Positions 4,880-37,250 of a DNA stretch of 46,226 nucleotides are shown here, one piece after another (positions within the stretch are counted from its first letter, which is position 1; the number at the start of each line of letters is the position of its first letter). The stretch spans positions 1 to 46,226 of the forward strand of contig NZ_JARWSK010000012.1 in assembly GCF_031081985.1 (NCBI RefSeq), given 5' to 3'. The notes beneath the pieces were generated by a model. The model did no database searches. It saw only the letters and a list, made by a program, of their open reading frames with translations, and was not told the DNA's origin. Made by a program: the position numbers and the translations under genes. Source of the stretch: Komagataeibacter xylinus. Its GTDB lineage: Bacteria > Pseudomonadota > Alphaproteobacteria > Acetobacterales > Acetobacteraceae.

Positions 4880-4903
4880 GGCTCTCACTGCCTTTTGCGC
4901 ATG

Positions 4904-5305: not shown

Positions 5306-5364
5306 GATCGTTCTCCTGTAATTTCCAACCATTGGAAATGATGTTGCGCGGTGAGACGCAGACC

Positions 5365-6791
<1,427 letters not shown>

Positions 6792-6809
6792 GAACGCTTA
6801 CTCCCGAAT

Positions 6810-18628: not shown

Positions 18629-18648
18629 TCCGGACTATGCGGCCGGCT

Positions 18649-19660: not shown

Positions 19661-19684
19661 ATGACCAAGTCAATGAGGGATGCC

Positions 19685-20654: not shown

Positions 20655-20930
20655 ATGGCAGGTTCAGGAATAAAGCAGGCCCGTGACCTTGAGATCATGG
20701 ATACAGACGCCATGACGGTAGCCCTCCTGCGCGAATACGGACTACCTGGCGCCAGGGAACGGGCGCGCCATCACGTTGGCCGGTGTGTCGAGGCTGGCCT
20801 TGTGGATGACGCCGCCTTCTGGATGCGCGTCAGCAACCAGCTCGAAAACCTGGCCTCCTCGGACTATGGTCCCGGAAACCTTTTCACGCCTTCGGGGCAG
20901 ATCAGCCCGACTGCCACGCGACTTGGCTGA
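20655..20930 (+). CDS. Small hypothetical protein upstream of an Rrf2 regulator
   Basis: A 91-residue mostly helical protein with TDAMTVALLREYGLPGARER and a following RHHVGRCVEAGLVDDAAFW stretch; no family was recognised. ATG 20655 follows AAGGACGGACAG. Its stop shares one base with the ATG of the Rrf2 gene (TGATG), so the two are coupled and probably work together. Confidence 0.6.
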   Translation: MAGSGIKQARDLEIMDTDAMTVALLREYGLPGARERARHHVGRCVEAGLVDDAAFWMRVSNQLENLASSDYGPGNLFTPSGQISPTATRLG

Positions 20931-21337
20931 TGCACCTCACCTTGCGTACCGACTACGCCTTCCGCGTGCTGATCCATCTGGCCCGCCATGGACACACACA
21001 GAACCGCATAACGGTCCGGCACATCGCCGAGCGGCACAATATCTCCCATAACCATCTCGTGAAGGTCGTCAACGACTTGTGCCATCATGATCTCCTGGTG
21101 GGAACCCGGGGGCGGAATGGTGGCGTCAGCCTGGCCCGCTCCCCGAAAGACATCAATGTCGGGCATGTCATCCGCCTCATGGAAACCGAAGGTGAAGTCA
21201 TGACCGGCTGTGCGCCGCTTCAGGGCAGACCCTGCATCCTGGCAGATGCCTGCCGTCTCCGTCACCTGACCAGACAGGCAACCGATGCTTTTATGGCCAT
21301 CCTCGACGGCATGAGCGTGCATGATCTCCTGTCCTGA
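20930..21337 (+). CDS. Rrf2 family transcriptional regulator (NsrR-like)
   Basis: A 135-residue winged-HTH protein: MHLTLRTDYAFRVLIHLAR, ITVRHIAERHNISHNHLVKV, LVGTRGRNGGVSLARSP. Three cysteines (GCAPLQGRPCILADACRL, spacing C-x7-C-x5-C) sit where NsrR/IscR/RsrR proteins bind an Fe-S cluster, so it likely senses nitric oxide, redox or iron state. No obvious target (such as an hmp gene) is on the plasmid; its targets may be chromosomal. Confidence 0.88.
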   Translation: MHLTLRTDYAFRVLIHLARHGHTQNRITVRHIAERHNISHNHLVKVVNDLCHHDLLVGTRGRNGGVSLARSPKDINVGHVIRLMETEGEVMTGCAPLQGRPCILADACRLRHLTRQATDAFMAILDGMSVHDLLS

Positions 21338-21345
21338 CAGGACGC

Positions 21346-22014
21346 TTATGACCCATCCGGCCGGACGGTCAGGACACAGGACTGGTCCACCTTCGTCTCG
21401 TTGGCCGTTTTCTGGCAGCCAGCGATCCGGTCCCGACTGGCGTCCACAAGCCGGTTGGCCCGGACCATATGCCGCAGGCTTTCGGGATTGTCGGCCTCCA
21501 TCATCAACGCACCAGATTCCCACCGATCCTGTCCGCCCACGATAAAGGAGGCCACCCGCGTCCCTAGTGACGATGGTAGGAGATAGGTCAAGGCAGGCGA
21601 GAACCCGATCCCGACAGCCAGACAGGCCAGCCCGACCTTCAGCACCCACCAGTTCTGACGGTCCTGGGTACGGGCCTGTCCGACAATGTCGGTCAGTTGC
21701 TGCCGCTCCACCTGAACCGCACGGATCGCGGTATGAAAGGCGGCCTGCATGTCCTGACAGACGGAAAGCCCTGCCTGTCGTACCCCCTGCCCATAGGCCT
21801 GCGGCGTCATCTTCAGCGTCGGACTGGCCTCGATCGCCTTCATGCGCGCGCCCACGTCGTTCAGGGCCTTGACCAGCCTGGCCAGGTCCGGCGTGTAGTC
21901 AGGCGGCCGGTTGTCCCGCCATGCCTGGGGCAGCGCTTCCACGCTGCGCCGGAGCACCGTCATTTCGGCGCACAGATCCTCAAAGGCGCGCGCGGCCGGA
22001 TCCGTCTCGCTCAT
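21346..22014 (-). CDS. DUF6118 family protein with one membrane segment
   Basis: About 222 residues: MSETDPAARAFEDLCAEMTVLRRSVEAL start, an extended helical region, one transmembrane segment (WWVLKVGLACLAVGIGF) near residue 140, and a C-terminal soluble part with two cysteines. It resembles DUF6118 proteins, which I associate with mobilization regions of alphaproteobacterial plasmids. The function is unknown. ATG 22014 was chosen for family similarity and a GAGGGGG site; the frame opens at 22032. It overlaps none of the neighbouring TA genes. Confidence 0.65.
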   Translation of the reverse strand: MSETDPAARAFEDLCAEMTVLRRSVEALPQAWRDNRPPDYTPDLARLVKALNDVGARMKAIEASPTLKMTPQAYGQGVRQAGLSVCQDMQAAFHTAIRAVQVERQQLTDIVGQARTQDRQNWWVLKVGLACLAVGIGFSPALTYLLPSSLGTRVASFIVGGQDRWESGALMMEADNPESLRHMVRANRLVDASRDRIAGCQKTANETKVDQSCVLTVRPDGS

Positions 22015-23974: not shown

Positions 23975-24393
23975 CCTCTCATCCTTCGCAAAAGAACACC
24001 TGGCCGCACTGCTGGAATACCGAACCGTGATACAGCCCGCTGCATGTCTTTCAGATTGAACGTGGCGATCGCATCCGCATTTCCGTTGATCGCTGTCTCA
24101 ACCACAAGTTCATCATCACCGTGCGCTCCTGTCGGTCGCCACCTGTAATCAAAAGAAACCGGCACGCAGCACCCTGCAAGTCCATCAAGAACCTCCAGAA
24201 CTTCATCCCCCTGAACGCCCATTCGAAAAAGGTTTTCAGAACGACGCAACACCGCCTCGTATTCGACCAGGAGGGTCGTGGAGAGCAGCAGACTGAAATT
24301 CCTATCCAAGGCCCCCAGCAAAAGCTGCCGGGACGCTCCGTCCGGTGACATGAATCCCGAAAGAACAACATCCGTATCAAGAACAACGCGCAT
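23971..24393 (-). CDS. PIN-domain toxin (COG1569 type)
   Basis: A 140-residue PIN protein: MRVVLDTDVVLSGFMSPDGASRQLL, LSTTLLVEYEAVLRR, GDDELVVETAINGNADAIATFN. The first Asp, the Glu in VEYE and the paired Asp residues in GDDE and NADAIAT are all present, so it appears intact. It is the first gene of the pair. Compare the truncated relative at 165-353, which lacks the first Asp. Confidence 0.9.
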   Translation of the reverse strand: MRVVLDTDVVLSGFMSPDGASRQLLLGALDRNFSLLLSTTLLVEYEAVLRRSENLFRMGVQGDEVLEVLDGLAGCCVPVSFDYRWRPTGAHGDDELVVETAINGNADAIATFNLKDMQRAVSRFGIPAVRPGVLLRRMRG

Positions 24394-24417
24394 AGTGACA
24401 TCATATATGACGTCACT
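24394..24417. promoter_or_regulatory. Operator-like 24-bp palindrome at the PIN/RHH promoter
   Basis: A near-perfect dyad AGTGAC-ATCATATATGAC-GTCACT abutting the toxin start codon; only one base pair breaks symmetry. It is a strong candidate binding site for the RHH protein of this module. Confidence 0.65.
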
Positions 24418-24439
24418 GCTTAACGTAAATCAAAATCTC

Positions 24440-27400
24440 CTACATCCCCATATCCATATCCCGCCCCCTGGAACGCGACAGCGAGCGCGTGCGCTGCGGC
24501 TGCAATCCATGATCGAGCGTCGATCCCTTCCGGACGCCCAGTTCATGCCCCTTCTGCCGCAGGAGGGATTCAAGCTGCACGTCCCGCTTCAGCTCCCTGA
24601 GCGCCACACCCTGCTGCTCGCGGCTCAGCCCGTCCCACGCCTTCACGAACCGCGCCGCCCGCAACTCGGGGGAATGCCGCACCTTGTCCTCGTGTTCCAG
24701 CCCCTCGACCAGCCTGCGCGCCCGTGCCGGCCCTTCCAGCCCGTACAGGGCCTGCCGGATCTCCGGCTCATGCTTCACGGCGGTTTCCAGAGCGATCACC
24801 GCCCCGGGCCGTAGCCGTTCGAGGGCCGTGCTGGCGTCAAGCCATGCCTTCTTCTGGTGCTCCAGCACCGGCAGCTCCTGCTCCACCATGCGCCCGATGT
24901 CCCGCACCGCCCGCGCATACTGCTCCACCGCCTGGTGGAGCGGATCACCACCCGGCACAAACCCGCCCAGCCCGGCAGGCACCTGCGCGCGCTGCACACG
25001 CGGCAGCCGCAACCCGGCAAAGGGCGAGGCGGGAGCTTCACGCTCAACCCCACTTTCCCCCTTACTGGCCCCGGCATCCACCCCGGCCGACACGTCTTTT
25101 TCCGCCGTCTGGCCACGCCCCCGCACGGACAGGTCCAGCCCGTCGAACATCCCGCGTTTCCGCTGCGCCGGTGCCGGATCTAGCGTATGGACAGCTTCGG
25201 CCTGCCTGTCCTTCTGGGGGCCAGAGGCCGTCTCGCTGCGCTCCACCACGATCTCGCTCTCGGGGACATGCAGCCCGCGCCGTCGCGCAAACCCGGCATC
25301 CCGATCCCGGACATGCGGGTAATCCAGCGTGGTATCCTTCAGCCGCTCGCGCGACAGCCGCCGCACCAGCCCGTCCCGGTCGCCCACATCATCCCGGCCC
25401 CAATGAACGGACACGCTCTCCCGATGGCGCGACAGCGCCACATAGGCCCCATGCCGGTCCATGCTCCCCGTCGCCAGCACATGCGCCCGGTCCACCGTCA
25501 CACCCTGCGATTTGTGGATGGTGGCGGCATAGCCATGATCCAGCGCGTCATAATCCGCCACCGACACGGACACGACCCGGCCACGTCCGGCTCCCTCCTT
25601 CCCATCAAGCTGGACCGATAACGCCAGATCCCCAGCCTCAGCCGACCCCACGATACCCCGCACCGTCCCCAGCGTACCGTTCTTTACCCCCAGCTCCCGG
25701 TCATTGCGCAGGAAGTAGATACGCTCCCCGTCCGCGAACACCCGCTCGCCCTGGGCGGTCGGCACCAGCACATCATCACCCAGTTCACCCGCGTCCCGCC
25801 GGATCTCCCGCGCCGCCTCGTTCAGCGCCCGCACATCGACACGCCGATGCGCCAGCATGATCTGGCTTTCCTCTGGCGCGGCCTGACGCGCTTCATCCCA
25901 TCCGGCCACCACCCCGGCCCGCGCCTCTTCCAGCGTGTCATGACCGCGCACCAGGCCGGCCGCCTCATAGCGCCCCAGCGCCTCATCCGTCCGCCCGGTC
26001 GCCAGCTCCTTCGTGGCCACCTGCTGCCAGCCTTCACGCTGCCGGCGCACGGTCGTGATTTCCACCGACCCGACCCGCTCGGCCACCGCCCGGAACGCAC
26101 CGCCGGCCTCGATCGCCTGCAACTGCTCGGGATCACCTACCAGCACCACCTTTGCCCCGACACCGCGCGCGGCCGACAGCACCCGCTCCATCTGCCGTGA
26201 CCCCACCATGCCGGCCTCGTCCACCACCAGCACGTCCCCGCGCTCCAGCAGGTCGAACCCACGTTCCCACGCACGCTCCAGGGAGGCCAGCGTCCGGCTC
26301 TCGATCCCGGACCCCGCTTCCAGACCTTCCGCCGCGATCCCCGACAGCGCCGCCCCGCGTACCCGATACCCGGCCTCTTCCCATGCCGCGCGGGCGACAC
26401 CCAGCATGGTGCTCTTCCCCGTCCCGGCATACCCGACCACCACGGACAGGTCGCGGGACTTCGTGACCTCGCCCACCGCCAGCGCCTGCTCGTCCCCAAG
26501 CCCGTCCCGCGCCATCGCCGCCCGACGCACCGCCAGCGGCACCACATGCCCCTGGGACTGCCCCATCGCGAGCGATGCCTCTTCCAGACGCTGCTCGACC
26601 CCGATCATCTCCCGTGTGGAGAACCGTTCCCGCCCATGACCATCTTTCCCGAGCGCGACCAACTCTGGACACGCCTCCACCCGAACCATGACAGCACTGA
26701 ACTGTTCTGCGTCTGCCGTATGCCGGTCCACGAACCGCGCCAGGTCCCGCCGGGTAAACGTGCTCTGCTGTCGCGTCAGCGCCTCCAGCGCCACATGCGG
26801 CTCGGCCAGCAACCTTTCGCCATTGCACCGCGCGATCTCCAGATGATCGGCAACCCGCTCCGCGTCCTCGCCCCGCTCTTCCCGGCGCATCCCGGCCGGA
26901 CCGATCTTGTTCTGTGGCTCAAGGTCGATCCCCTGTGCGGCGAACGACCGATGGTCGATCCGCACATCCAGGTCCAGCTCGGCCAGCCGTTCATTGGCGA
27001 GCGACGCCCACCGCTCCCGCCACGTCAGCAGCAGATCCCTGTCATTCCATGAACGCTCTTTCGCACCGAACCCGATGGAAGGCTGATCCTGCGCCAGCCC
27101 CAGGCCTTCATGCCGCAACCGTGCCGCAGCAATCAGTCGCGCTGTTCTTCCAGCCGCTGCAAGCGCTTCTCCAGCGTCGAGAGCTTCAGCAGGATGCCGC
27201 GCTGCGTCTCCCGAATTTCCGTCAGCAGACGGATCATGAGCTTGAGTGGATCGTCCTCCCCTTTCTGCTCCATCAGGTCCAGGATCCGGCGTGATGTCGT
27301 ATGCGCCCCCGCCGCCTCGTTCAGGATGCGGGATTCCGTTTCGTCTTCCATGCACAGCCTCTCCGGTTCTGACTTCGATCCGCCGCGTGGACAGCATCAC

Positions 27401-27817
27401 ATGCGCATGGGGCTTCGCCTGTCCATCTTCGCCAATATCCCAATGCACATTGAGATCGGCCACCATGCCGCGTTCCACGAACTGCTCCCGCACAAAATCC
27501 CGTGCCAGCGCGATCCCCTGCGCCTGGGTCATTTCACGCGGGATTGAAAACTCCACCTCGCGGGCAAGCTGGGCATCCCTGCGCTTCTCGATCGCCTCGA
27601 CCTCGTTCCATAGGGTCGCACGATCAAGAAACCGTTCCGGCGCGCCATCGGGCAGCAGGATCTCGGAATGCACCACGCCGCTCTTGTTGGAAAAGTCATG
27701 GTCGCGATCCAGCCGCAAATCATGCAGGCGGGATGCCGCGCGATAGGCCGCCGCCGCCACGGCGCTCCGGCCGGTGGCGCGGCTGATGACCTTTGCATGC
27801 AGGTGATAGATCGCCAT
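24440..27817 (-). CDS. traA: Ti-type mobilization relaxase/helicase TraA
   Basis: 1125 residues. N-terminal MobA/MobL relaxase (MAIYHLHAKVISRATGRSAVAAAAYR, metal-binding HAHVML with the upstream HW), then a TraI-type helicase: Walker A VVGYAGTGKSTML, Walker B DVLVVDEAGMV, LVGDPEQLQAIEAGGAF, GYAATIHKSQGVTVD and YVALSRHRESV. It nicks oriT and unwinds the transferred strand. Residues about 150-230 form an extra low-complexity Gly/Arg/Pro-rich insert between the relaxase and the GFGAKERSWND segment; a second gene is encoded there in another frame. It is divergent from traC, with the probable oriT in the 88-bp gap. Confidence 0.93.
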   Translation of the reverse strand: MAIYHLHAKVISRATGRSAVAAAAYRAASRLHDLRLDRDHDFSNKSGVVHSEILLPDGAPERFLDRATLWNEVEAIEKRRDAQLAREVEFSIPREMTQAQGIALARDFVREQFVERGMVADLNVHWDIGEDGQAKPHAHVMLSTRRIEVRTGEAVHGRRNGIPHPERGGGGAYDITPDPGPDGAERGGRSTQAHDPSADGNSGDAARHPAEALDAGEALAAAGRTARLIAAARLRHEGLGLAQDQPSIGFGAKERSWNDRDLLLTWRERWASLANERLAELDLDVRIDHRSFAAQGIDLEPQNKIGPAGMRREERGEDAERVADHLEIARCNGERLLAEPHVALEALTRQQSTFTRRDLARFVDRHTADAEQFSAVMVRVEACPELVALGKDGHGRERFSTREMIGVEQRLEEASLAMGQSQGHVVPLAVRRAAMARDGLGDEQALAVGEVTKSRDLSVVVGYAGTGKSTMLGVARAAWEEAGYRVRGAALSGIAAEGLEAGSGIESRTLASLERAWERGFDLLERGDVLVVDEAGMVGSRQMERVLSAARGVGAKVVLVGDPEQLQAIEAGGAFRAVAERVGSVEITTVRRQREGWQQVATKELATGRTDEALGRYEAAGLVRGHDTLEEARAGVVAGWDEARQAAPEESQIMLAHRRVDVRALNEAAREIRRDAGELGDDVLVPTAQGERVFADGERIYFLRNDRELGVKNGTLGTVRGIVGSAEAGDLALSVQLDGKEGAGRGRVVSVSVADYDALDHGYAATIHKSQGVTVDRAHVLATGSMDRHGAYVALSRHRESVSVHWGRDDVGDRDGLVRRLSRERLKDTTLDYPHVRDRDAGFARRRGLHVPESEIVVERSETASGPQKDRQAEAVHTLDPAPAQRKRGMFDGLDLSVRGRGQTAEKDVSAGVDAGASKGESGVEREAPASPFAGLRLPRVQRAQVPAGLGGFVPGGDPLHQAVEQYARAVRDIGRMVEQELPVLEHQKKAWLDASTALERLRPGAVIALETAVKHEPEIRQALYGLEGPARARRLVEGLEHEDKVRHSPELRAARFVKAWDGLSREQQGVALRELKRDVQLESLLRQKGHELGVRKGSTLDHGLQPQRTRSLSRSRGRDMDMGM
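27133..27351 (-). CDS. Small coiled-coil protein encoded inside traA in the +1 frame
   Basis: 72 residues, same strand as traA but one base out of frame. The protein looks real: an acidic start (MEDETESRILNEAAG), then TSRRILDLMEQKGEDDPLKL and a heptad-rich helix ETQRGILLKLSTLEKRLQRL. The ATG follows a good GGAGAGG site. The traA frame over the same bases is low-complexity and looks like a linker, suggesting this embedded frame carries the stronger constraint. It may be a regulator or accessory of mobilization; no family was recognised. Confidence 0.6.
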   Translation of the reverse strand: MEDETESRILNEAAGAHTTSRRILDLMEQKGEDDPLKLMIRLLTEIRETQRGILLKLSTLEKRLQRLEEQRD

Positions 27818-27840
27818 GAGTGCGATCCTATCACACCACT

Positions 27841-27895
27841 TAAGCGCACGTCACGAAGTGACGTATAAGCGCGCACTCACATTTTACTGCGCCAC
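27841..27895. other. oriT: Candidate origin of transfer (oriT)
   Basis: The short gap between divergent traA and traC, the place oriT has in Ti plasmids. It holds a perfect hairpin ACGTCAC-GAA-GTGACGT (27848-27864) flanked on both sides by the direct repeat TAAGCGC (27841-27847 and 27866-27872), then GCGCACT and TACTGCGCC, resembling the nick region of IncQ/Ti-type oriTs (TAAGTGCGCCCT). The exact nick is not defined. Confidence 0.6.
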
Positions 27896-27979
27896 AAGGG
27901 TTGATTGCTCTGGATGAGTGACGCGGTTCTCGCCTGCGTGATAGAGTATGCCACAGACCAGCAGGACAGAGGGCGGAAA

Positions 27980-28273
27980 ATGCGCAGGCCACGGGACATT
28001 GATGCGGAACTGAAGGCGCTTCAGGAAAAGGCAAAACAGCTTAAGGCGCAACGGACCCTCCAGCTCGGCGAACTGGTCGAGGCGACGGGAGCCGATACCC
28101 TGTCGATCGAGGCGCTGGCCGGGGTGCTGCTTGCGGCTGTCGAACAGGCGGACGGCAAACCAGAAGCCGTCGCGAGGTGGACCGAACGGGGGACGGCGTT
28201 CTTTCAGGCTGGCGCAAAAAAGGGCGGCCGGAAAGGAACCGGAAACGATCAGAACGGAGCTTCTGGCGCTTGA
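27980..28273 (+). CDS. traC: Mobilization accessory protein TraC
   Basis: 97 residues: RRPRDIDAELKALQEKAKQL coiled start, LGELVEATGADTLSIEALAG, and a Lys/Gly-rich tail with FFQAGAKKGGRKG, the usual TraC layout. TraC assists the relaxosome at oriT. ATG 27980 follows GAGGGCGG; the open frame extends to 27905. The 3' part overlaps the traD frame. Confidence 0.8.
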   Translation: MRRPRDIDAELKALQEKAKQLKAQRTLQLGELVEATGADTLSIEALAGVLLAAVEQADGKPEAVARWTERGTAFFQAGAKKGGRKGTGNDQNGASGA

Positions 28274-28604
28274 AAGACGGATCAGGAAGCAGGAAGCCCT
28301 GATCCATCGCCATCAGGCACGAAAGGCACGCACCGACATGCGCGACTGGGCGAAGGCGCGACGGGAACGCACCCATCATCTGATCGAACTGGGCGGCCTG
28401 GTCCAGAAGGCGGGACTGGTCGATCTGACCGATGATGACCGCGCCACCCTGCTCGGGACTTTTCTGGATATTGCAGGACAGCTCCAGGGCAGCAATGATA
28501 CTGCTCCGGTTGACCTGAAAACACGCTGGAGGCGTGCGGGACTTCATGCCTTCGACAGGGACCGGGAACATGACAGGACAACAGGCAGACGTGACCATGA
28601 CTGA
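28131..28604 (+). CDS. traD: Mobilization accessory protein TraD (start uncertain)
   Basis: The conserved core is ARTDMRDWAKARRERTHHLIELGG with an LVDLTDDDRATLLG segment, a TraD hallmark, preceded by a basic helix. No good ATG exists before the core: the frame opens with TTG 28131, deep within traC; an AAAGGAA site at 28231-28237 precedes only an ATC (28248); the first ATG is 28338, inside the core. The coordinates give the maximal frame. It is likely translated by coupling to traC. Confidence 0.7.
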   Translation: MRLSNRRTANQKPSRGGPNGGRRSFRLAQKRAAGKEPETIRTELLALERRIRKQEALIHRHQARKARTDMRDWAKARRERTHHLIELGGLVQKAGLVDLTDDDRATLLGTFLDIAGQLQGSNDTAPVDLKTRWRRAGLHAFDRDREHDRTTGRRDHD

Positions 28605-29100
28605 CCACGAGACACGATCATCCGAAGCTGACACGCTGCGGGAGCTTACGACCCGGATTGTCGCTGCCTATGTCAGCAGCAATACGGTTCCGGCGGAGAC
28701 CCTGCCAGGCCTCATCGCCTCGGTATTTCAGGCGCTCGGAAGTCTGGGACAGGCGATGACCGAAACACCAGATCTGGTGCCGGCCGTGCCTGTGAAGAAA
28801 TCCGTGTTTCCAGACTACATTGTCTGTCTGGAGGACGGAAAAAAAATGAAGATGCTCAAGCGCCATCTTCGTACTGTCTATGGCATGACACCCGAGCAGT
28901 ATCGGGAGAAATGGGGCCTGCCGGAAAGCTACCCGATGACCGCCCCATCCTATGCAGCTCGACGTTCTGCCCTGGCACAGGAGATCGGACTGGGGCGGAC
29001 CGTCAAGGAGACACCGGCCCCTTCGGAAACATCAGGAACTGGGGTGCCGGTCACACGCCTGCCAGAGAAGAAACGCGGACGCAGGCCGAAACTGGCCTGA
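28597..29100 (+). CDS. MucR/Ros-family zinc-finger regulator
   Basis: About 167 residues: LTTRIVAAYVSSNTVPAETL start, then DYIVCLEDGKKMKMLKRHL, YGMTPEQYREKWGLP and YPMTAPSYAARRSALAQEIG, the MucR core, plus a basic C-terminus (KKRGRRPKLA). The finger has Cys then Asp in place of the second Cys, as in several MucR/Ml proteins. It overlaps the traD stop by 8 nt, so it belongs to the mobilization operon and may control it. ATG 28570 in the same frame is an alternative start. Confidence 0.85.
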   Translation: MTDHETRSSEADTLRELTTRIVAAYVSSNTVPAETLPGLIASVFQALGSLGQAMTETPDLVPAVPVKKSVFPDYIVCLEDGKKMKMLKRHLRTVYGMTPEQYREKWGLPESYPMTAPSYAARRSALAQEIGLGRTVKETPAPSETSGTGVPVTRLPEKKRGRRPKLA

Positions 29101-29125
29101 AGGTCCAGACCGGGAGAAACGGGAC

Positions 29126-29191
29126 ATGAAGGCATGGGCCGCCAGCCTCGGCACGGATAACCCGCTCCCCCTGCCACAACCCGGGCAATAA
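29126..29191 (+). pseudogene. C-terminal relic of a short CopG-type antitoxin
   Basis: A 21-residue frame, MKAWAASLGTDNPLPLPQPGQ, whose last 20 residues differ at only two positions from the end of the intact small antitoxin at 30473-30637. The upstream part of that gene is missing here, so this is a leftover of a second copy. Confidence 0.6.
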
Positions 29192-29246
29192 GGGGGACGC
29201 TCTCGCACACCGCAGGAAGGTAACGAGGCGTACATTGGTCACGGCT

Positions 29247-29345
29247 ATCCGTCAGGTCATACCGGATCAGATCGGTGGTTACGACGAAATCCTCGGCCGC
29301 TTCGTCACTGTGCAGCGAGGGCATGGACCTGTTTTTGCTGCTCAT
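29247..29345 (-). pseudogene. N-terminal relic of a CopG/BrnA-like antitoxin
   Basis: 33 residues starting at an ATG with a strong AAGGAG site: MSSKNRSMPSLHSDEAAEDF, then TTDLIRYDLTD, which match the start of COG5304-type antitoxins (paired with BrnT-like toxins). Beyond this the frame runs into unrelated sequence, so the RHH part is lost. It lies back to back with the relic at 29126-29191. Confidence 0.5.
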
Positions 29346-29401
29346 GGTGGTCGATCTCCTTCTCGTGCAGGAAAGTGGGCAAAGAAAGATCAGAGCCACT
29401 C

Positions 29402-29743
29402 TTATGCGTGTACCGTCTTCCCGCGCCGTGAAGATCGTGCAGATCCCGCGTCTGTTTTCGTGGGCGCCTTACGTAAGGCGCGATTCATAATTTCACGCAG
29501 CGCATCATTCATACGTGTCTGATAGCCAGGCCCGTCCTTCTCGAAGAAAGCCACGACATCAGCGTCAAACCGCACGGTTTTCTGCACTTTACGGGGTCGA
29601 TAGAAGCGCCCCCGTTCCGCATGTGACCAGTCACGAATTTCTGGGGCTTCATCATCCGTCACAATCTGATTGTCAGGCATGGCCTCCACAGCCCGTAACG
29701 CCTGAAGCAGTTCAGAGTCCATTTTCGTATGCTTTGCGCTCAT
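29402..29743 (-). CDS. brnA: BrnA-type antitoxin
   Basis: 113 residues: acidic N-terminal part (MPDNQIVTDDEAPEIRDW) that contacts the toxin, then FYRPRKVQKTVRFDADVVAFF and YQTRMNDALREIMNRAL, the BrnA RHH signature. It overlaps the brnT 3' end by 32 nt (11 nt if the ATG at 29722 is used). The basic, Ser/Arg-rich tail may aid DNA binding. Confidence 0.9.
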   Translation of the reverse strand: MSAKHTKMDSELLQALRAVEAMPDNQIVTDDEAPEIRDWSHAERGRFYRPRKVQKTVRFDADVVAFFEKDGPGYQTRMNDALREIMNRALRKAPTKTDAGSARSSRRGKTVHA

Positions 29744-30008
29744 GGGCAGTTGCCTTTCTTACGCTGATAATACGACCGTATTCTTCGCCATCCTCCTCGT
29801 CTTCCACGGGTTCTGTATGAACGACGAAGAGAGTTGTGATGCCCCGTATCTTCCCTATGGTTCGCCACCTGTCCCCATCTGGATGGGGATCAGGGACAGA
29901 CAATGCGAGCGGATCGCCGTCGAGAACAAACCTGCCGGTTTCCAGAGGCAGCTTATGCTTCTCCCTGTTTTTTGAATCCTTTTCAGGATCCCATACCCAT
30001 ATGGTCAC
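29712..30008 (-). CDS. brnT: BrnT-type ribonuclease toxin
   Basis: 98 residues: WDPEKDSKNREKHKL, RWRTIGKIRGITTLFVVHTE, GRIISVRKATAHERKAYENG, the BrnT core in the RelE/BrnT fold with the conserved WD..K...N..KH and R.ISaRkat..Er..Ye motifs. It begins with GTG at 30008. Upstream lies a TTGTA-GT-TACAA palindrome (30032-30043), the likely BrnA operator. The module appears intact. Confidence 0.92.
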   Translation of the reverse strand: MTIWVWDPEKDSKNREKHKLPLETGRFVLDGDPLALSVPDPHPDGDRWRTIGKIRGITTLFVVHTEPVEDEEDGEEYGRIISVRKATAHERKAYENGL

Positions 30009-30031
30009 AATCCGCTCCAGTAGTTACGGAA

Positions 30032-30043
30032 TTGTAGTTACAA
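30032..30043. promoter_or_regulatory. BrnTA operator candidate
   Basis: TTGTA-GT-TACAA dyad, with GTAGTTAC occurring twice (30020-30027, 30034-30041), 24 bp before the brnT start. Typical of autoregulation by the BrnTA complex. Confidence 0.5.
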
Positions 30044-30147
30044 CAGTATGATTTTTCAAGCCCGCATTCCTGCAACGGATTAACTCAATTCCCGATGACA
30101 GGATTCTACCACAGGCTCCCAATGTTCTCTGCCGAAGCAAGAAAAAC

Positions 30148-30318
30148 TCAGTCTTCCTGTTGAGATATCAGCCGGATCTGGGCGATCATTTCATCGGCTG
30201 TGATCTCTCCGCACTGGCGGGCATCCATGATTGCGGTGAGCGAGCGTATATCTGTGCCCGCCTTATGTAACGATAACGTAATAATTATCTGCGGGTTTCC
30301 TGTGGCCGGAAAACTCAT
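30148..30318 (-). CDS. Small hypothetical protein (56 aa)
   Basis: MSFPATGNPQIIITLSLHKA, then TDIRSLTAIMDARQCGEITA and a DEMIAQIRLISQQED end. ATG 30318 has a strong GGAAGGAAGAG site, supporting real expression although the gene is short. No family was recognised. It is divergent from the short antitoxin at 30473, from which it is separated by about 150 bp. Confidence 0.5.
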   Translation of the reverse strand: MSFPATGNPQIIITLSLHKAGTDIRSLTAIMDARQCGEITADEMIAQIRLISQQED

Positions 30319-30472
30319 ATCTCTTCCTTCCCCTGCTTCAGCGAAACGTCCTGATCCCATCGAACATGGACATTGTCGATGACGCACAGGGTTCTCGGGC
30401 GCTGCGGTCACCAGAAACACGTGGACACAGACCGGAACGGGCCTGATGATCCGGCCTGGGAGGAACACCATC

Positions 30473-30637
30473 ATGGAAACAGGTCATTCCGATCGGGAAG
30501 CCGAAAAGAACGAAGCGACACGCCAGGCACTGGCCCAGGCGGATGCCGGATTGTTCATCAGTGGTGAAGCGGTGAAGGCATGGGCGGCCAGCCTCGGGAC
30601 CGATCATCCCCTTCCCCTGCCTGAACCCGGGCAATAA
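30473..30637 (+). CDS. Short CopG-type antitoxin-like protein (54 aa), orphan
   Basis: METGHSDREAEKNEATRQAL, then AQADAGLFISGEAVKAWAAS and LGTDHPLPLPEPGQ. The ending resembles the SWGT.xELPPP tail of small antitoxins paired with RelE/ParE toxins. ATG 30473 follows GGGAGGAACACC. No toxin gene follows, so it is an orphan. A relic of a second copy is at 29126-29191. Confidence 0.55.
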   Translation: METGHSDREAEKNEATRQALAQADAGLFISGEAVKAWAASLGTDHPLPLPEPGQ

Positions 30638-30993
30638 GGCGGCCGCAGTGCCGTAGAAGGGTGAATGTGACGGCCTATCGCAGGCCGGTGACAAGGACCG
30701 CTGCGCCTGGCGCCAGGGCAGCTTTCGGTTTCCTGGATCCTGGCCCTTCGATTTCGTCCTCCCAATTATGGAAAATCATTGGAAAGCCGCCATTGTCAGT
30801 GTCGCTAATCGGACCCCCCTTTAATATGTCTGTCCATGGCCTACGCCTTTCTCCAGTCCCGGCACCTCACAACGGTCGGACGGGAAAAAAGAGTCACGGG
30901 TCCACCTCCACAGCCCAGTCTGCCAGCCTTACGACCGGCCATTCCTGATCGCATCCCACGGACCACCCACCCGCACTATGGAAGCCTTCCGCC
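30638..30993. other. Non-coding stretch
   Basis: About 355 bp with no supported gene. It contains a GGCCT-ATCGC-AGGCC hairpin (30672-30686) and, near 30796-30825, TGTCAGTGTCGCTAATCGG followed by six C, which reminds of a terminal repeat of an IS21-like element but has no matching partner here. Confidence 0.3.
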
Positions 30994-31905
30994 TCAGTGG
31001 TGCTGGTTTTTGTGCCCGTATGTCGCTTGCAGTCTTTCCTGCAGGTAGTCATGCCCGGTGACGGGCGGATAATGCGCATGCTCGCCGGCGCGGGTTACGA
31101 TCGGCTCGACCAATGCATCCGCATCGGGATCGAGGAAGAAAGCGATCGAATACCGCTCGCCTGCAGGGCGCAGTACCCGATGCGGGGTCGAGACATACAC
31201 ATCATTGCTCCACCGCATCAGGCAGTCACCGATATTGCAGATGAACGTGCCGGGAATCAGCGGGGCGTCCGTCCAGTCGCTACCGCGCGGACGTACCTGC
31301 AGGCCCGATACGCCATTAACCGCAAGGATCGTGACATTGCCGTAATCGGTATGGGCACCCGCCCCCGGTGCCGTGCTGGCCTGTTGCGCGGGCGGATAGC
31401 GCAGCAGGCGTAGCGTGGCCATGGGGTGCCTGAATTTATCGACAAAGAAATCCTCATCTACCCCCAGGTCACGGGCAAAACCGCGATGCAGTGCCGCGCC
31501 GAGATCAAGGCAGGTGGCGAAATATGCCATCATCAGATCCTGCCATCCCGGTAGAGCAGGCCATGCGTCCTGGCCACCGGGCTGGTTAGGGCTGATGTTG
31601 AAGGCTTCCTTGCGGTCGGGCAGGGAAGTCGTATCAAGCCGTTCGACCCCCAGCCCCACATAGCCCCGGTTCTGGCCCACGCGGCTCATGGCCACGGCTT
31701 CCTTGGCGGCGGCGGGCTGGGTGAAGAACGTGTGCGAGGCCTCGAAGAGCTTTGCTATCGTATCGGGAGATACGCCATGGCCGGTAATGTAGAAAAAGCC
31801 GGTCTCGCGGCAGGCCCTGCCGATGGCGCTGGCCACGGCCTCCCGCTCCGCACCGTTACCCTGGCGCAGGGGGGCAATGTCGATAACAGGAATGTCATGA
31901 GTCAT
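30994..31905 (-). CDS. 2-oxoglutarate/Fe(II) dioxygenase, isopenicillin-N-synthase-like
   Basis: 303 residues: MTHDIPVIDIAPL start and CRETGFFYITGHGVSPDTI form the DIOX_N domain; the catalytic domain has the iron ligands in AHTDYGNVTIL (HxD) and YVSTPHRV (His), and the 2-oxoglutarate-binding RYSIAFF (RxS). It matches the bacterial isopenicillin N synthase/ethylene-forming-like family, which oxidises small molecules. The specific substrate is unknown and no biosynthetic partner is adjacent. Confidence 0.88.
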   Translation of the reverse strand: MTHDIPVIDIAPLRQGNGAEREAVASAIGRACRETGFFYITGHGVSPDTIAKLFEASHTFFTQPAAAKEAVAMSRVGQNRGYVGLGVERLDTTSLPDRKEAFNISPNQPGGQDAWPALPGWQDLMMAYFATCLDLGAALHRGFARDLGVDEDFFVDKFRHPMATLRLLRYPPAQQASTAPGAGAHTDYGNVTILAVNGVSGLQVRPRGSDWTDAPLIPGTFICNIGDCLMRWSNDVYVSTPHRVLRPAGERYSIAFFLDPDADALVEPIVTRAGEHAHYPPVTGHDYLQERLQATYGHKNQHH

Positions 31906-32138
31906 GGGACTGCTCCTATTTACCTCAGGACCGGCACAAAACCGTTACAGGTCCAAAATGCATAAGAGTATTTTTTAAATATTACATAATGGAATTTTAA
32001 ATGTATACATTCGTTATTTATATATCTTTTAGTACTTTTTGCTATTTTTTTGGTGTCTGTGAACTTTGGTCTTGTATTGATACATTTTAATTGTGTGGTA
32101 TTTTAAAAAACTAATTCATTATTACCTCAATATGTGAG

Positions 32139-32546
32139 TTATGCGACCTTTCTTGGTCGGCCGCCTTTGACACCATTTCGACGTGCCGCTGCGGCTTTTG
32201 CTGGCGATGCCTGTCGGCCTGCCTTTGCCGCCATGTAAGCACGGGACCCAAACAGGCCCGCCATCAGTTCCGGCACCAGTAGGTCAGCATCCAGTGCCTC
32301 CCAGTGCAGGCCGTAGCCACCCATGATTTCTACCTGAGCCAGTTGCTCTGGCGTTGCTCTCTCAAGGCCCTGAGCCTGTGAGGCAGGGAATTCAAAGCGG
32401 GTGCCATTGGACAGCTCAACGGTTACGCGCCCTGTCGTGGCATCGTACCCAGCAGCAATCGCCTGGGGCACCGTCTCGCGCCGAATGCGACCACGTTCAT
32501 AAGCGGCATCCATCTGCTTTTCGATGTCATGATCGTTGCGCATCAA
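32139..32546 (-). CDS. DUF2442 protein, probable antitoxin-like partner
   Basis: 135 residues with the DUF2442 pattern GRVTVELSNGTRFEFPASQAQGL, QLAQVEIMGGYGLHWEALDADL and MAGLFGSRAYMAAKAG; the C-terminus is basic (KGGRPRKVA). DUF2442 genes usually follow DUF4160 genes, as here, with a 20-nt overlap. The pair is widely regarded as a TA-like module, but the activity of either protein is not well established. A second DUF2442 gene lies at 41004-41330. Confidence 0.8.
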   Translation of the reverse strand: MMRNDHDIEKQMDAAYERGRIRRETVPQAIAAGYDATTGRVTVELSNGTRFEFPASQAQGLERATPEQLAQVEIMGGYGLHWEALDADLLVPELMAGLFGSRAYMAAKAGRQASPAKAAAARRNGVKGGRPRKVA

Positions 32547-32775
32547 TCGTCCTCCATGCGGCCAATAGGGCTTCGCGTTGTTCCACCGCGATCCCGAACG
32601 CCTCGCGTACGTCTGCTCGCTTCACGCCGGGGGCAATCTCCCGGACCGTTGCCTTGGTTTCCCCAAGGTTGATGATGATTTCACGGCCATCACAGAACAC
32701 ATGGACATGGGCCGGATCATGGTCATTTGCATAGATCATGAACCTGAATCGGCCCACTCGGTGAACTGTTGGCAT
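32527..32775 (-). CDS. DUF4160 protein, probable toxin-like partner
   Basis: 82 residues: MPTVHRVGRFRFMIYANDHD, PAHVHVFCDGREIIINLGET, then VKRADVREAFGIAVEQREAL. The HDPAHVHV motif is the DUF4160 signature. ATG 32775 has an AGGA site at good distance; GTG 32781 is also possible. It forms an operon with the DUF2442 gene. Confidence 0.82.
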   Translation of the reverse strand: MPTVHRVGRFRFMIYANDHDPAHVHVFCDGREIIINLGETKATVREIAPGVKRADVREAFGIAVEQREALLAAWRTIDAQRS

Positions 32776-32850
32776 GGTCACATCCTACCACAAAACCCAA
32801 CAGGATGGGTATTTTTATTATGACCAGGGTAGGGATCGGTACATAGAACG

Positions 32851-33252
32851 GGCACAGATATACGCTGTGTCGTCACCAACCTGCGTGGCGGGAATGCCGG
32901 ATGGCTTTACGACACCCTCTACTGCGCCCGGGGACAGGTGGGAAACCTGATCAGGCTGCACAAGGGGCAACTGGCCTCAGACCGGACAGGCTGTCGCTCG
33001 TCTCGCGCAAATCAGGTCCGCCTCGTGTTGCACACCGCCGCCTACTGGCTGATGCTGACGGTGCGCGAGGCCATCCCCAGACCCCAGCCGCTCGCTACGG
33101 CCGAATTCACCACGTTACGCATGCGCCTGATCAAGGTCGCCGGCCGGGTTATCGAGACCGCAACCCGGGTTCGCATCGCATTCGCCGCAGCATGCCCCGA
33201 AGCCGCACTCTGCGCCGGTATCGCCCGGGGTCTGCAACCCGCCGGACCGTGA
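32851..33252 (+). pseudogene. IS1380-family transposase, 3' fragment
   Basis: 134 codons in frame matching the transposase end: TDIRCVVTNLRGG, GNLIRLHKGQLASDRTGC, ANQVRLVLHTAAYWLMLTVR, and RLIKVAGRVIETATRVRIAF. The N-terminal two thirds, including most of the catalytic DDE region, are missing, so the fragment is dead. The inverted-repeat end follows at about 33381-33406. Confidence 0.8.
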
Positions 33253-33380
33253 CAGGCGGGGCTGTCGCCCCCGAACCCGCCCCAGCCCGCCAACTCAAGC
33301 GCCGACCAATCCTCACTCTGAAATCAGCCTCCAGGATCGCGTAGACCCCGCGCGTCCAGAATCAGGAAACCTCAAAAAGT

Positions 33381-33406
33381 CACAACCCGTGAATAAGACG
33401 GGCTAG
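33381..33406 (+). mobile_element. IS1380-type terminal repeat (one end only)
   Basis: ACCCGTGAATAAGACGGG lies about 135 bp after the transposase stop, the position and sequence type of an IS1380 terminal repeat (CCCGTCTTATTCACGGG on the other strand). The opposite end of the element is absent, so only the right part survives. Confidence 0.55.
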
Positions 33407-33705
33407 TCACTGCATACCCTCTCTTGGCACTGTCTCGGCCCCGTTCTGGTACCTGACTGACACCGCATTCGGGGCTGCATTGGACCCGGCCTACTAGGGG
33501 CTCTTCATACACCATTGCACCGTTGGTGCGGGCAGCATGGAAAAGGAGCCATTAATAATGGCCCTTGGGGAAGGCCCCGCCCGCTTGGATCCCACTGATG
33601 AAGACAATTCGGCTGGAGATGTTTTTTTATGCCTGGTCGCATGACGGTCATCCAGCCTTTCGCGATCCGGCTGCTTCTGGCTGGCATGATCGTGAGAAAG
33701 ATTCC

Positions 33706-34150: not shown

Positions 34151-34187
34151 GCATGAAAGGAAGCCTGTGCATGGCTTCCTTTCATGC
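34151..34187 (+). terminator. Hairpin terminator after the 33706-34137 gene
   Basis: Perfect 15-bp stem, GCATGAAAGGAAGCC with its complement, around a 7-nt loop, 13 bp after the stop codon. The following T content is moderate (TTCCGTTCTTTCC), not a pure T-run. It may insulate the PLD-ATPase gene. Confidence 0.65.
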
Positions 34188-34210: not shown

Positions 34211-34246
34211 TCGAAATTTACTCTGTATGGGCATATGCTTTACGTA
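34211..34246 (-). pseudogene. Relic of the 3' end of an XRE-type gene
   Basis: 36 bp matching 41416-41451 at 31 positions. On the minus strand it reads RKAYAHTE-stop, compared with VREAYAHTE-stop at the end of the XRE gene at 41423-41950. The rest of the gene is absent. Confidence 0.5.
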
Positions 34247-34389
34247 TCCACCGCCCTCAACCGCCGTGTGGCAACAGGCATCACCTGACGCCGAAAAAAA
34301 TGACATTTCTCCCTATCGTGATCCCACGCTGGTCCCCAGTCGCGCAATCGTAGGTGGTCTCATCCCCTTCATGCCTGCCGGAGCCCCGC

Positions 34390-36450
34390 ATGACGGACCT
34401 GCTTTCCAACCTGCCCTCACGACAGCCTGCCCCCCTGACTGTTTTTCAGGCCCGACTGGACGCGCATGCCCAGCAGAACTGGCAGGACGTGTTCGCAGGT
34501 TTTTCCACGCTTCGGGCCATTACCTTTTCCAGCTCGCTGGAATTCCTGCTCGACCTTGCCGAACAGTTCGAAGACATGGAAATCATCTTCGGCGCCGAGC
34601 ATATCCTGACCAAGACCCACCTGGCCCTTGTCCAGGCCAGCCAGGTTTTTGAAGCCTACGGTTTCCGGGACTGTCTGGCTGACCAGAAATCCCTTGTGGA
34701 AGGGCTGCGCCAGCTCCTCGGTCCACGCAGCAGCCTCTTCCTGCCGCGCCTGCATGATGGCACGCTGCGCTTCCGGCTGATGACCGGCCGCCCCAGTCAT
34801 GAAAAGCTCTACCTTCTGTCCGGCCCCGATGGCCACCGGGTGGTTACGGGGTCCGCCAATCTCAGCCTGTCCGCCTTCCATGCCCGCCAGCACGAAGTGA
34901 TCATCACCTTTGATGACCCAACCGCATGGCACGTGTTCGAAGACTATTACCAACGCGATTACAAACAGAGCGTGCCGGTTGAAGACGAAATCCTGATTGG
35001 CGTTTCTCCCACTGCGAAAACAGGGCAGGCGGATATCCCGACGGACCCGATCCCCTACGAGGACGTGCCCATCGTCCGGGCCATCCGGGCCGGGCTTGCG
35101 CATGTCGAACAGGGCGGCATCCCCATGCCGGACGGCTTTTCCGCCACGGCCCTGCGCATGGCACAGCGCCTGCGGCAGGAACTGGAAACCGTGCCCCTGC
35201 CCATGAACCGCAAGGGCATGGCCCTTGTCACGCCCCGGACGGTCTCGACCTTCCTGCAGGCCCGCAACAACCTGCCCGCACCGGATCGTCCGGCAGATGA
35301 CATCCCACACGCGACCCTGTCGGTCCGGACGGGCGAAGTCCATCTGAATGACCGGTTATGGCTGTCGGAAAAGGAGACCATACCAGCCGCGCAGGTCGCG
35401 CGGGATGCGCGCATGCTGGTCACCTATATCAGCAGTTTCGCGGCGTTTTATGGCAACAGCCAGAGTGCCATGGCATCCTACTGGGCTTTTCTGGTCTGGC
35501 TCTATATGGCGCCTTTTGCCGCTTTCCTGCGGCAGGGCGCCGTCATCAACCATATCGACCCGTGGCTCTATCCACCCTATGCCGTGTTGTATGGCCGCTC
35601 CAGCGGGGGCAAGACCTTGTTCACGCGGATCATCGCCCAGTCCATGTTCGGGATCGTCAAGAGCATCCGCTCATCGGACTTTACCGCACAACGTGCGCTG
35701 GCCCTGCGCTTCGGGCTGGGAGCCATTCCATTGCTGATCGACGATGTCACTCCTGACCGGATGGGCAAATACGTGCCGGACATGGTCCGTACCGATCATG
35801 ACATGGCCGAACGCTATGCCCCGATTGTCCTGACCACCAACAAGGATGTCACCAGCATTTCCGCCGATCTCACCAAGCGGATGGTGACCTGCCATATCGA
35901 TGCCTCTCTGCCCGACAGTCGTGCGCTCCAGACGGAAAGCCCCCGCCGCCTGCAAAAGGAGATCGGCACCGCCCTTTACCGCCAGTATCTGACCCTCATG
36001 CTCCCCCAGATCCGCGCCATGCGGATCGAGATGGATCAGGGTGCGGGCAAGACCATTCCGGATGCCTTCGCCATCTCCTCACGCATCCTGCTTTCCCTGC
36101 TGGAGCAGCACGTCTCTCCCCGCCCCGACTGGGCCTGTCCGCTCTCGTACCGGACCTATCAGGCAATGCGGGCCATCCAGTTCCAGCGCATCCTTGTCGA
36201 GATGATCGGAAGCCACCCTGAAAACATCATCCTGTCACGGGACAAACGTTTCATGCGGGTGCGCTTTGGCGGTGACATTCGCCAGGCCGTGGCCTTCGAG
36301 AAATCCGTGCCGGAATTCGTCTTCAAGGGCCGTATCGCGGATACGGTCAAACTGGACCTGCTGGCCATGGAAGAAGAACTGGGCTTCTCACCAGTCCGCA
36401 ATACCTCCCTGCTGGGGCGTGTCGTAAAAGCCTGGAAGAAACCCGGATAA
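34390..36450 (+). CDS. PLD-like nuclease domain fused to a P-loop ATPase
   Basis: 686 residues from ATG 34390 (GGAG site). Residues about 30-200 form a single PLD phosphodiesterase unit: HEK at 137-139 and GSANLS at 154-159 (HxK...GSxN). A linker follows to about 320. Residues about 395-515 carry a P-loop NTPase: Walker A YGRSSGGKT (401-409), Walker B LLIDD (448-452), sensor-1-like TTN (482-484) and a candidate Arg finger in LTKRM (497), reminiscent of SF3/DUF5906-type ATPases. A helical C-terminal part follows. A one-motif PLD unit implies dimerisation. Nuclease plus ATPase in one protein beside TA modules suggests a plasmid defence or DNA-processing role; the function is unknown. Confidence 0.75.
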   Translation: MTDLLSNLPSRQPAPLTVFQARLDAHAQQNWQDVFAGFSTLRAITFSSSLEFLLDLAEQFEDMEIIFGAEHILTKTHLALVQASQVFEAYGFRDCLADQKSLVEGLRQLLGPRSSLFLPRLHDGTLRFRLMTGRPSHEKLYLLSGPDGHRVVTGSANLSLSAFHARQHEVIITFDDPTAWHVFEDYYQRDYKQSVPVEDEILIGVSPTAKTGQADIPTDPIPYEDVPIVRAIRAGLAHVEQGGIPMPDGFSATALRMAQRLRQELETVPLPMNRKGMALVTPRTVSTFLQARNNLPAPDRPADDIPHATLSVRTGEVHLNDRLWLSEKETIPAAQVARDARMLVTYISSFAAFYGNSQSAMASYWAFLVWLYMAPFAAFLRQGAVINHIDPWLYPPYAVLYGRSSGGKTLFTRIIAQSMFGIVKSIRSSDFTAQRALALRFGLGAIPLLIDDVTPDRMGKYVPDMVRTDHDMAERYAPIVLTTNKDVTSISADLTKRMVTCHIDASLPDSRALQTESPRRLQKEIGTALYRQYLTLMLPQIRAMRIEMDQGAGKTIPDAFAISSRILLSLLEQHVSPRPDWACPLSYRTYQAMRAIQFQRILVEMIGSHPENIILSRDKRFMRVRFGGDIRQAVAFEKSVPEFVFKGRIADTVKLDLLAMEEELGFSPVRNTSLLGRVVKAWKKPG

Positions 36451-36493
36451 GCCAACAAGGATGCCTGCATGCACGATCATCCGGTTTCAACGC

Positions 36494-36880
36494 TCAGACG
36501 GCCCTGATGGGACCTGGATAAGCCTGCACGAATGGATCATGGGTCAGGAGGAGCAGGCCCTCCACCGTGGCCTGGGCGACCAGGATACGGTCGAAGGGAT
36601 CGCGATGGACATCGGGAAGTTGTCCGACCGCCACGGCATGCTGGCTGGTAACAGGCAGTTCCTCGTAATCGTTCTCGATGAGGCCGCGCCGCAACAGGTG
36701 CGGATCCACCTGGAAGTCTGCCCGGCCGAGCCCGGCCTTGATGGTGACTTCCCACAGACTGGCGGCACTGAACACCAGCATGTTCTCCGGATTTTCCATG
36801 AGAGCCCTGGCGTCAGCGGAGAGTTTCTCAGGTTCTCCAGCCGCCCAGAGGAGCAGATGGGTATCGAGCAGAAGCCTCAT
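36494..36880 (-). CDS. VapC-type PIN-domain toxin, copy 2
   Basis: 128 residues, about 90% identical by eye to copy 1 at 19927-20313, with the same length and catalytic motifs (LLLDTHLLLWA, SLWEVTIKAGLG, DPFDRILVAQA, LLTHD). Differences are scattered (AGEPEKL for AGNPGKL, MLVFSAA for ILMFSAA). It overlaps its antitoxin by 4 nt. It looks active. Confidence 0.92.
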   Translation of the reverse strand: MRLLLDTHLLLWAAGEPEKLSADARALMENPENMLVFSAASLWEVTIKAGLGRADFQVDPHLLRRGLIENDYEELPVTSQHAVAVGQLPDVHRDPFDRILVAQATVEGLLLLTHDPFVQAYPGPIRAV

Positions 36881-37122
36881 GCCTGCCCATCGAACAGCGA
36901 ACCGATCTCGTCCTGTCCCATGTGATCGAAATCGTCCGGCACCTGCATCCTGCCTGCAAGGAAGCCCAGGCGTTGCTTGTGCTGTTGTTCCGGAGCAGAG
37001 ATAGGGCTCACCCGTACAACCGGTTTACCGGCCCTGGCGATGATAAAGCTCTCGCCTTTCATTGCAGCGTCGATCAGCCGGGACAGGTGCGTCTTGGCTT
37101 CATGGATATTAACGGTTCGCAT
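36877..37122 (-). CDS. Phd/YefM family antitoxin, copy 2
   Basis: 81 residues, MRTVNIHEAKTHLSRLIDAA start, near-identical to copy 1 through KGESFIIARAGKPVVRVSP and with the same acidic tail (DDFDHMGQDEIGSLFDGQA). ATG 37122 corresponds to the start chosen for copy 1. The promoter DNA is not conserved between the copies, so regulation may differ. Confidence 0.9.
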   Translation of the reverse strand: MRTVNIHEAKTHLSRLIDAAMKGESFIIARAGKPVVRVSPISAPEQQHKQRLGFLAGRMQVPDDFDHMGQDEIGSLFDGQA

Positions 37123-37132
37123 GGGGCACCCC

Positions 37133-37147
37133 TTTGGCTTAGCCAAA
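37133..37147. promoter_or_regulatory. Palindrome upstream of phd copy 2
   Basis: TTTGGC-TTA-GCCAAA, a perfect dyad 10 bp upstream of the phd start and different from the dyad at copy 1. Candidate Phd operator. Confidence 0.5.
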
Positions 37148-37224
37148 TCAACTTAGTCAGGTTAAGCTGAATGAGCAAGAAAACAGCTTTTGTCGATCTC
37201 ATCAACGACAATCGTATCATCATG

Positions 37225-37250
37225 CCCGCCTGCTTGCGGATGGCGGCGAC
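37225..37250 (-). pseudogene. Short relic of a hicA 3' end
   Basis: 26 bp matching the hicA 3' end at 42980-43005 with two differences. On the minus strand it reads VAAIRKQAG, the end of HicA. Nothing else of the gene is visible, so it is a scar of a lost HicAB module or a shared recombination point. Confidence 0.5.

Follow-up and report, generated by a model that had tools for sequence, protein, structure and literature searches.

In haloarchaea, the APAP system pairs a long-A Argonaute with AgaP, a phospholipase D (PLD) protein (PMC11442185). According to the main text of that paper, AgaP of N. pellirubrum is toxic when Argonaute is missing, and the toxicity operates through residues H105, K107, G157, S158 and N160. 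Argonaute suppresses this toxicity, and the two proteins together restrict plasmids in a manner dependent on the PLD residues of AgaP, which also boosts immunity against a single-stranded DNA virus (PMC11442185). AgaP is described there with an N-terminal PLD domain in which the roughly 50 residues between the HxK and GSxN motifs are called unique; the word ATPase occurs 0 times in the main text, and the uses of helicase shown there concern separate proteins or genes. Soluble archaeal proteins were unobtainable in E. coli, which was attributed to salt adaptation (PMC11442185). A PLD orthologous group is listed among the neighbours of Argonaute genes (PMC6299218), and the available passages of PMC10853773, PMC12839542, PMC11090510 and PMC2743648 do not describe a PLD-ATPase fusion. 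Here we analyse a gene predicted to encode such a fusion on a 46,226-nucleotide contig of Komagataeibacter xylinus (NZ_JARWSK010000012.1; the whole contig is referred to as the window). The genome, 3.53 Mb in 16 contigs of which this is contig 2, has a single copy of the gene. The reading that we favour, with a probability of roughly 0.6, is that the protein acts as a stand-alone nuclease in defence or plasmid conflict, that it belongs to a branch of the AgaP family which is bacterial and lacks Argonaute, and that its own ATPase provides targeting and restraint.

A PLD nuclease and an AAA+ ATPase in one chain

The open reading frame extends from 34354 (GTG) or 34390 (ATG) to 36450 on the + strand. 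The ATG is preferred as the start because GGAG lies 6 nt 5′ of it and the alignments of close relatives begin at its Met. The features of the gene are listed below; rows refer to A5, an 11-row bacterial alignment that includes 10 of 14 loci found in genome contigs and omits L019, L020 and L023 (99-100% identical) and L025 (cut by a contig end).

34390..36450, + strand: PLD-ATPase gene, distant homologue of haloarchaeal AgaP, 686 aa
34462..35034, + strand: predicted PLD nuclease domain, residues 25-215 as profile part (Pfam match 130-194, PF09565 above cut-off)
34798..34806, + strand: HxK motif H137-E138-K139; H and K invariant in 11 rows
34849..34860, + strand: GSxN motif G154-S155-A156-N157; invariant in 11 rows
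35305..36024, + strand: predicted SF3/Cch/MCM-like AAA+ ATPase domain, residues 306-545 as profile part (VIA-align matches, model residues ~304-645)
35590..35616, + strand: Walker A, YGRSSGGKT 401-409; G402, S404, G406, G407 and K408 invariant in 11 rows
35731..35745, + strand: Walker B, LLIDD 448-452; L448, D451 and D452 invariant in 11 rows
35833..35841, + strand: motif C / sensor-1-like TTN 482-484; T483 and N484 invariant in 11 rows
35875..35883, + strand: KRM 496-498, arginine-finger-like by inferred role; invariant in 11 rows

The sequence-only reading of this DNA had picked out the motifs HEK, GSAN, YGRSSGGKT, LLIDD, TTN and KRM, with about 260 residues from HxK to the P-loop, and all are present at that distance. 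Its assignment of a PLD nuclease and an ATPase like those of helicase superfamily 3 (SF3) or the AAA+ class to one chain is borne out by Pfam, by the invariant residues of A5 and by the fold of the structural model. On the PLD side, RE_NgoFVII (PF09565) matches residues 130-194 with 24.5 bits against a cut-off of 23.8, and PLDc_2 matches residues 124-190 with 24.2 bits, below its cut-off of 27; both families match 10 of the 11 members scanned, the exception being an ATPase half from Thermus. E169 is invariant together with H137, K139, G154, S155 and N157, and the invariant residues of the ATPase part include K496 and R497 besides those of the P-loop, D451, D452 and N484. Both halves thus lie in one chain with their catalytic residues conserved. 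The remaining Pfam matches among the 11 members are weak (Tyr-DNA_phospho 0.014; VRR_NUC 0.046 in 2 members; Toprim_3 0.13; DUF927 0.33; the rest no stronger), and none is a significant ATPase family.

The ATPase half was assigned by motif and by fold. We take the four motifs to be Walker A, Walker B, the sensor-1 Asn and arginine-finger-like residues; all are present, as is the overall fold of an SF3/Cch-like AAA+ protein. In a VIA-align structure comparison, in which the lack of other folds was not counted as evidence, the modelled ATPase half was most like the initiator helicases of the staphylococcal cassette chromosome mec (SCCmec) and of Staphylococcus aureus pathogenicity islands (SaPIs). 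An SF2 helicase was considered and rejected, as no SF2 family appeared in Pfam at E ≤ 5 and the motifs and fold are SF3/AAA+-like.

Other searches returned little. A PDB sequence search with the single protein gave nothing at E ≤ 5, and the best matches of PDB profile searches were non-significant (E 0.12 and 0.59). In PHROGs the best match (0.013) covered residues 21-50, and a BriC match in NCBIfam (0.0071), far below its cut-off, was taken as chance. PADLOC gave weak matches in the PLD part, to ZacB in 6/6 proteins (2.1e-6 to 0.0056) and to DrmC, REase_II, PDC-M27B and PLD_Helicase, with no AgaP-named model among the matches. Ratios of nonsynonymous to synonymous substitution (dN/dS) for the whole gene are 0.147 to K. 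rhaeticus (L021), 0.146 to K. melaceti (L022) and 0.127 to K. nataicola (L003); the L024 pair gave no dS value, and dS exceeds 1 in most other distant pairs. By part the ratios lie mostly at 0.05-0.27, with 0.51 for residues 531-686 against L022.

Relationship to haloarchaeal AgaP

A tblastn search of plasmids with the protein found 8 records: 3 from Komagataeibacter, 4 from Acetobacter and one from Thermus oshimai. An insertion sequence (IS) interrupts the Thermus gene; the PLD half precedes this element and the ATPase half follows it. This ATPase half matches a Natrarchaeobaculum protein annotated as 'phospholipase D-like' (E 6e-3); the gene for that protein and the end of a Piwi (Argonaute) gene overlap. 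With the Natrarchaeobaculum protein as query, 22 plasmid records were recovered, 19 haloarchaeal and 3 from Arcobacter, of which 11 and 1, respectively, were examined. In 6/11 haloarchaeal loci (L043, L048, L049, L051, L053 and L058) a Piwi gene lies upstream, either adjacent or separated by one gene. The other five (L050, L052, L054, L055 and L057) have no adjacent Piwi, and their plasmids gave no Piwi match above cut-off; a single match below cut-off (E 1.6e-6) lies on the L055 plasmid at a distance of about 77 kb. Neighbours of L050 and L057 include helicase and PD-(D/E)XK nuclease genes, and those of L054 metallophosphoesterase, SMC and NurA genes.

Profile comparison aligns the bacterial and haloarchaeal proteins over 576 columns (A5 against the 11-row haloarchaeal alignment A7: probability 99.5, E 2.9e-23). 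Profiles of the PLD part (25-215) and of the ATPase part (306-545) each match 11/11 haloarchaeal proteins, the weakest ATPase match being that of L052 (E 0.0022), while the best values from 220 shuffled control sequences were 0.17 and 0.71. Profiles of the middle and C-terminal parts had no significant match among these 11 proteins, and sequence identity is remote (24% in the two main BLASTP segments to P0007). Loss of PLD catalytic residues in the homologues, which would have spoken against the sequence-only reading, was seen neither in the 11 rows of A5 nor in the 11 haloarchaeal proteins.

The published AgaP falls within this set. In N. pellirubrum (L058), an open frame has the AgaP PLD residues at the published numbers and a Piwi gene upstream, for which reasons we take it as AgaP, and its C-terminal half matches the ATPase profile of the window family with E 7.8e-11. 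The frame (L058:3998-6151) is open throughout, and NC_019963.1 annotates only short hypothetical proteins there, one on the same strand and two on the opposite one. The window protein is a distant homologue of AgaP in both halves: in each protein a PLD domain containing HxK and GSxN is N-terminal and a P-loop ATPase, of one family in the two, is C-terminal, and the lengths are close (686 aa and 717 aa). The distance from the H of HxK to the G of GSxN is 17 residues in the window protein, 52 in N. pellirubrum AgaP and 18 in six other haloarchaeal relatives (L043 and L051-L055, three of them beside Piwi). Since it is short in these six as well, the spacing of about 50 residues is not a mark of the whole family.

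The window protein differs from APAP in its company, as a search of carrier genomes recovered no Argonaute gene. Piwi (PF02171) was found in neither the window's genome (0/1) nor the other carrier genomes (0/13, many of them drafts or metagenome bins, and two, G254 and G281, with cut or broken copies only), and in 14 plasmid records the only match above cut-off was the known positive. On these grounds the window system is not APAP. The novelty claimed by the sequence-only reading accordingly holds in part: the AgaP branch is described, within APAP, in PMC11442185, and 6/11 haloarchaeal loci thus belong to a described defence system, whereas for the bacterial Argonaute-free branch and the motor domain no description was found in the open-access literature, for the most part as represented in its listings. 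Its proposal of a role in defence or plasmid conflict gains support from homology to AgaP, through which such a role may be suggested for the window protein too.

A tree was built from 9 of the 11 rows of A5 (without L022 and L032), the 11 rows of A7 and the Arcobacter protein. It separates the bacterial from the haloarchaeal rows as two supported clades, and within the latter the solo copies fall among those linked to Argonaute. The Arcobacter protein sits on a long branch of uncertain position, and the root is a midpoint only. Its match to the haloarchaeal profile (L056) has a probability of 99.2, and there is a weak PADLOC mad8 match (0.0021) in its ATPase part. Its gene, a very distant relative at L056:5758-7851 on a plasmid, adjoins ParA/ParB and lies near a replication gene.

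Distribution in bacteria

A scan of genome contigs gave 14 loci, 38-100% identical, in Komagataeibacter, Acetobacter, other Alphaproteobacteria and Acidobacteriota, and the single-chain layout is retained in the full-length rows. The gene is rare: 5/299 genomes of the family carry it, including the window's own and one (G078) matching residues 2-78 only; 3/385 of the class, again including its own, the other two matching the PLD part only; and 1/297 Acidobacteriota genomes, the seed genome itself. The Acidobacteriota copies are on contigs whose neighbouring genes look chromosomal by eye. No phage matched the protein, and four scans of viral contigs confirmed no relative.

Several copies are broken, that of pGX4 by an IS insertion and a second copy in pKOB3 by division into two open reading frames. 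Two Thermus plasmids have a transposase insertion at the same site of the gene (L007 ~6733-7860 and L044:5783-6873, ends placed by visual inspection); downstream of the insertion in T. thermophilus JL-18 lies a different protein, and the ATPase half was not seen. In another genome of the window's genus, a 221-aa open frame (G281:C1:1638267-1638893) on a 3.53-Mb contig joins residues 1-79 to 556-686, an internally deleted remnant.

Neighbouring genes and mobility

The contig is plasmid-like, as positions 24000-46226 match plasmids pGX4 and pKOB3 with 75-76% coverage and 97-98% identity; 17 kb of the window are matched by K. xylinus NBRC 15237 (L023) with 99.2% identity. Elsewhere on the contig, a 5.2-kb segment with formaldehyde-detoxification-type genes (1817-7072) is 99.9% identical to K. 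xylinus and K. saccharivorans plasmids and probably reflects recent transfer, and large hemagglutinin-repeat and ShlB/FhaC-type secretion genes at ~7400-22000 (rough boundaries) are common to several Komagataeibacter plasmids. Two further features bear on the surroundings of the gene.

34151..34187, + strand: terminator-like inverted repeat of 15 bp with a 7-nt loop, 3′ of the small upstream gene; outside the smallest shared block
34245..36591, + strand: smallest block with the whole gene, common to K. nataicola pKNA08 (L003), from block comparison

The inverted repeat agrees with the earlier description of a small upstream gene behind its own terminator. Toxin-antitoxin (TA)-type genes lie on both flanks, as also described. 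On the downstream side there is a Phd-type antitoxin at 36877-37146 (TIGR01552, 8.2e-7), preceded by 36494-36880, which has no VapC match in NCBIfam and a pKOB3 counterpart annotated VapC; upstream, 32527-32781 has a DhiT match far under its cut-off. In L002, L008, L019, L020 and L023 the PLD-ATPase gene is accompanied by the small gene upstream and by the TA genes downstream, but this does not hold for all loci. A large part of the neighbourhood is common to L002, L008 and L023, and the block shared with L019 and L020 starts near 33500 and thus includes the small upstream gene. Beyond pKNA08, the shared block covers 34244-37247 in K. melaceti and only 34477-36447 in K. rhaeticus, so that it can shrink to gene size. 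Because it narrows in these three, neither the small gene nor the TA modules are fixed partners, and both partner readings were discarded on the block boundaries. The K. rhaeticus plasmid record p9b2 (13.4 kb) matches window 24000-33534 at 97.3%; the gene is absent among its 16 features and by tblastn, in a record that ends 89 bases past the match and may be cut.

Comparison with known systems and alternative explanations

Several known nucleases share one half of the protein. The NgoFVII and BfiI-type PLD restriction endonucleases share the PF09565 match, whereas the C-terminal half of the window protein is an ATPase, and the neighbour tables of 7 plasmid loci (PLSDB gene tables, which are incomplete) contain neither a methyltransferase gene nor the DISARM genes DrmA/DrmB. 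SauUSI, CglI and other restriction enzymes couple a PLD nuclease to an ATPase in the accounts available, but theirs is an SF2 helicase, of which the window protein has no family match. The best PDB match of profile A6 is a 'Putative helicase' (7clg, which we take to be SauUSI), at a non-significant E of 0.12 over profile positions 130-280 only. DrmC of DISARM shares the PLD domain (PADLOC match of the window protein, E 0.0054) but, with a profile of 153 positions, no fused ATPase. The fold of the ATPase half is shared with SCCmec Cch, the SaPI replication initiator helicases and the D5/E1 SF3 helicases, in none of which, to our knowledge, is there a PLD nuclease.

This likeness to initiator helicases, and the position of some plasmid copies near ParA, RepA or TraA, could point to plasmid housekeeping, with a Cch/SaPI-Rep-like helicase serving replication, resolution or transfer and the PLD domain processing ends. 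However, pKOB3 and pKNA08 carry RepA and ParA genes of their own, the related plasmid p9b2 is recorded without the gene (the record possibly being cut), Acidobacteriota copies have chromosomal-looking surroundings and disrupted copies persist on plasmids, all of which makes housekeeping unlikely. Slightly ahead of it, though still improbable, is a toxin or addiction protein whose PLD domain harms cells losing or gaining the element and is held back by an unlinked inhibitor or by another domain of the chain. The strong toxicity of AgaP without Argonaute (PMC11442185, main text) would fit this, as would the setting among TA modules and the broken copies, but no neighbour is conserved across the examined loci as a possible antitoxin, and 686 aa with an ATPase are unlike the small toxins of TA modules.

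The published observation that AgaP is tolerated in the archaeal test host only with Argonaute (PMC11442185, main text) raises the question of whether an unlinked host partner replaces Argonaute in a split system, and the five haloarchaeal relatives without an adjacent Piwi gene would agree with that. No co-occurring gene surfaced, in an analysis that ran no systematic co-occurrence test, and we consider such a partner doubtful, behind both housekeeping and addiction. DNA repair by a tyrosyl-DNA-phosphodiesterase-like end cleaner with an AAA+ motor would explain why several haloarchaeal relatives are annotated as tyrosyl-DNA phosphodiesterase and why PF06087 exceeds its cut-off in P0007. Yet the extreme patchiness and the Argonaute-linked copies are unlike repair housekeeping, and the PLD match above cut-off in the window protein is RE_NgoFVII, Tdp not being listed by Pfam; repair is the least probable of the four.

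Proposed mechanism

In Nuc-type PLD enzymes the active site is built by a dimer. As there is only one HxK/GSxN motif in the window protein, pairing of two chains is expected, and they may form one PLD active site in the same manner. SF3 helicases form rings on DNA, and the ATPase may do likewise, loading on foreign replicating DNA at forks, single strands or ends. It would keep the nuclease in check until loaded and then deliver cutting. With Argonaute absent in the bacteria searched, either the protein itself or an unlinked factor must provide restraint and targeting; under the favoured reading of a stand-alone nuclease, the ATPase would supply what Argonaute gives in the archaeal operon, and in haloarchaea Argonaute would be an optional added partner.

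A broader idea, to which we give less than even odds, is that this is a one-protein, Argonaute-independent form of immunity in which an SF3-type ring ATPase guides and restrains a PLD nuclease and senses foreign DNA by its mode of replication. It would represent a widespread ground state that gave rise to APAP by recruitment of Argonaute. The interleaving of solo and Argonaute-linked haloarchaeal copies in the tree would fit such an origin, the direction of change being inferred.

Implications

The relationship takes the AgaP family beyond haloarchaea into several phyla of bacteria and separates its nuclease from Argonaute. It also indicates a conserved motor domain in AgaP, one left unnamed in the main text of the 2024 paper (PMC11442185). 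A bacterial homologue might escape the salt adaptation that hindered work with soluble archaeal proteins in E. coli. The recognition of the motor domain makes it testable whether the motor of AgaP, rather than Argonaute alone, chooses the DNA to be destroyed.
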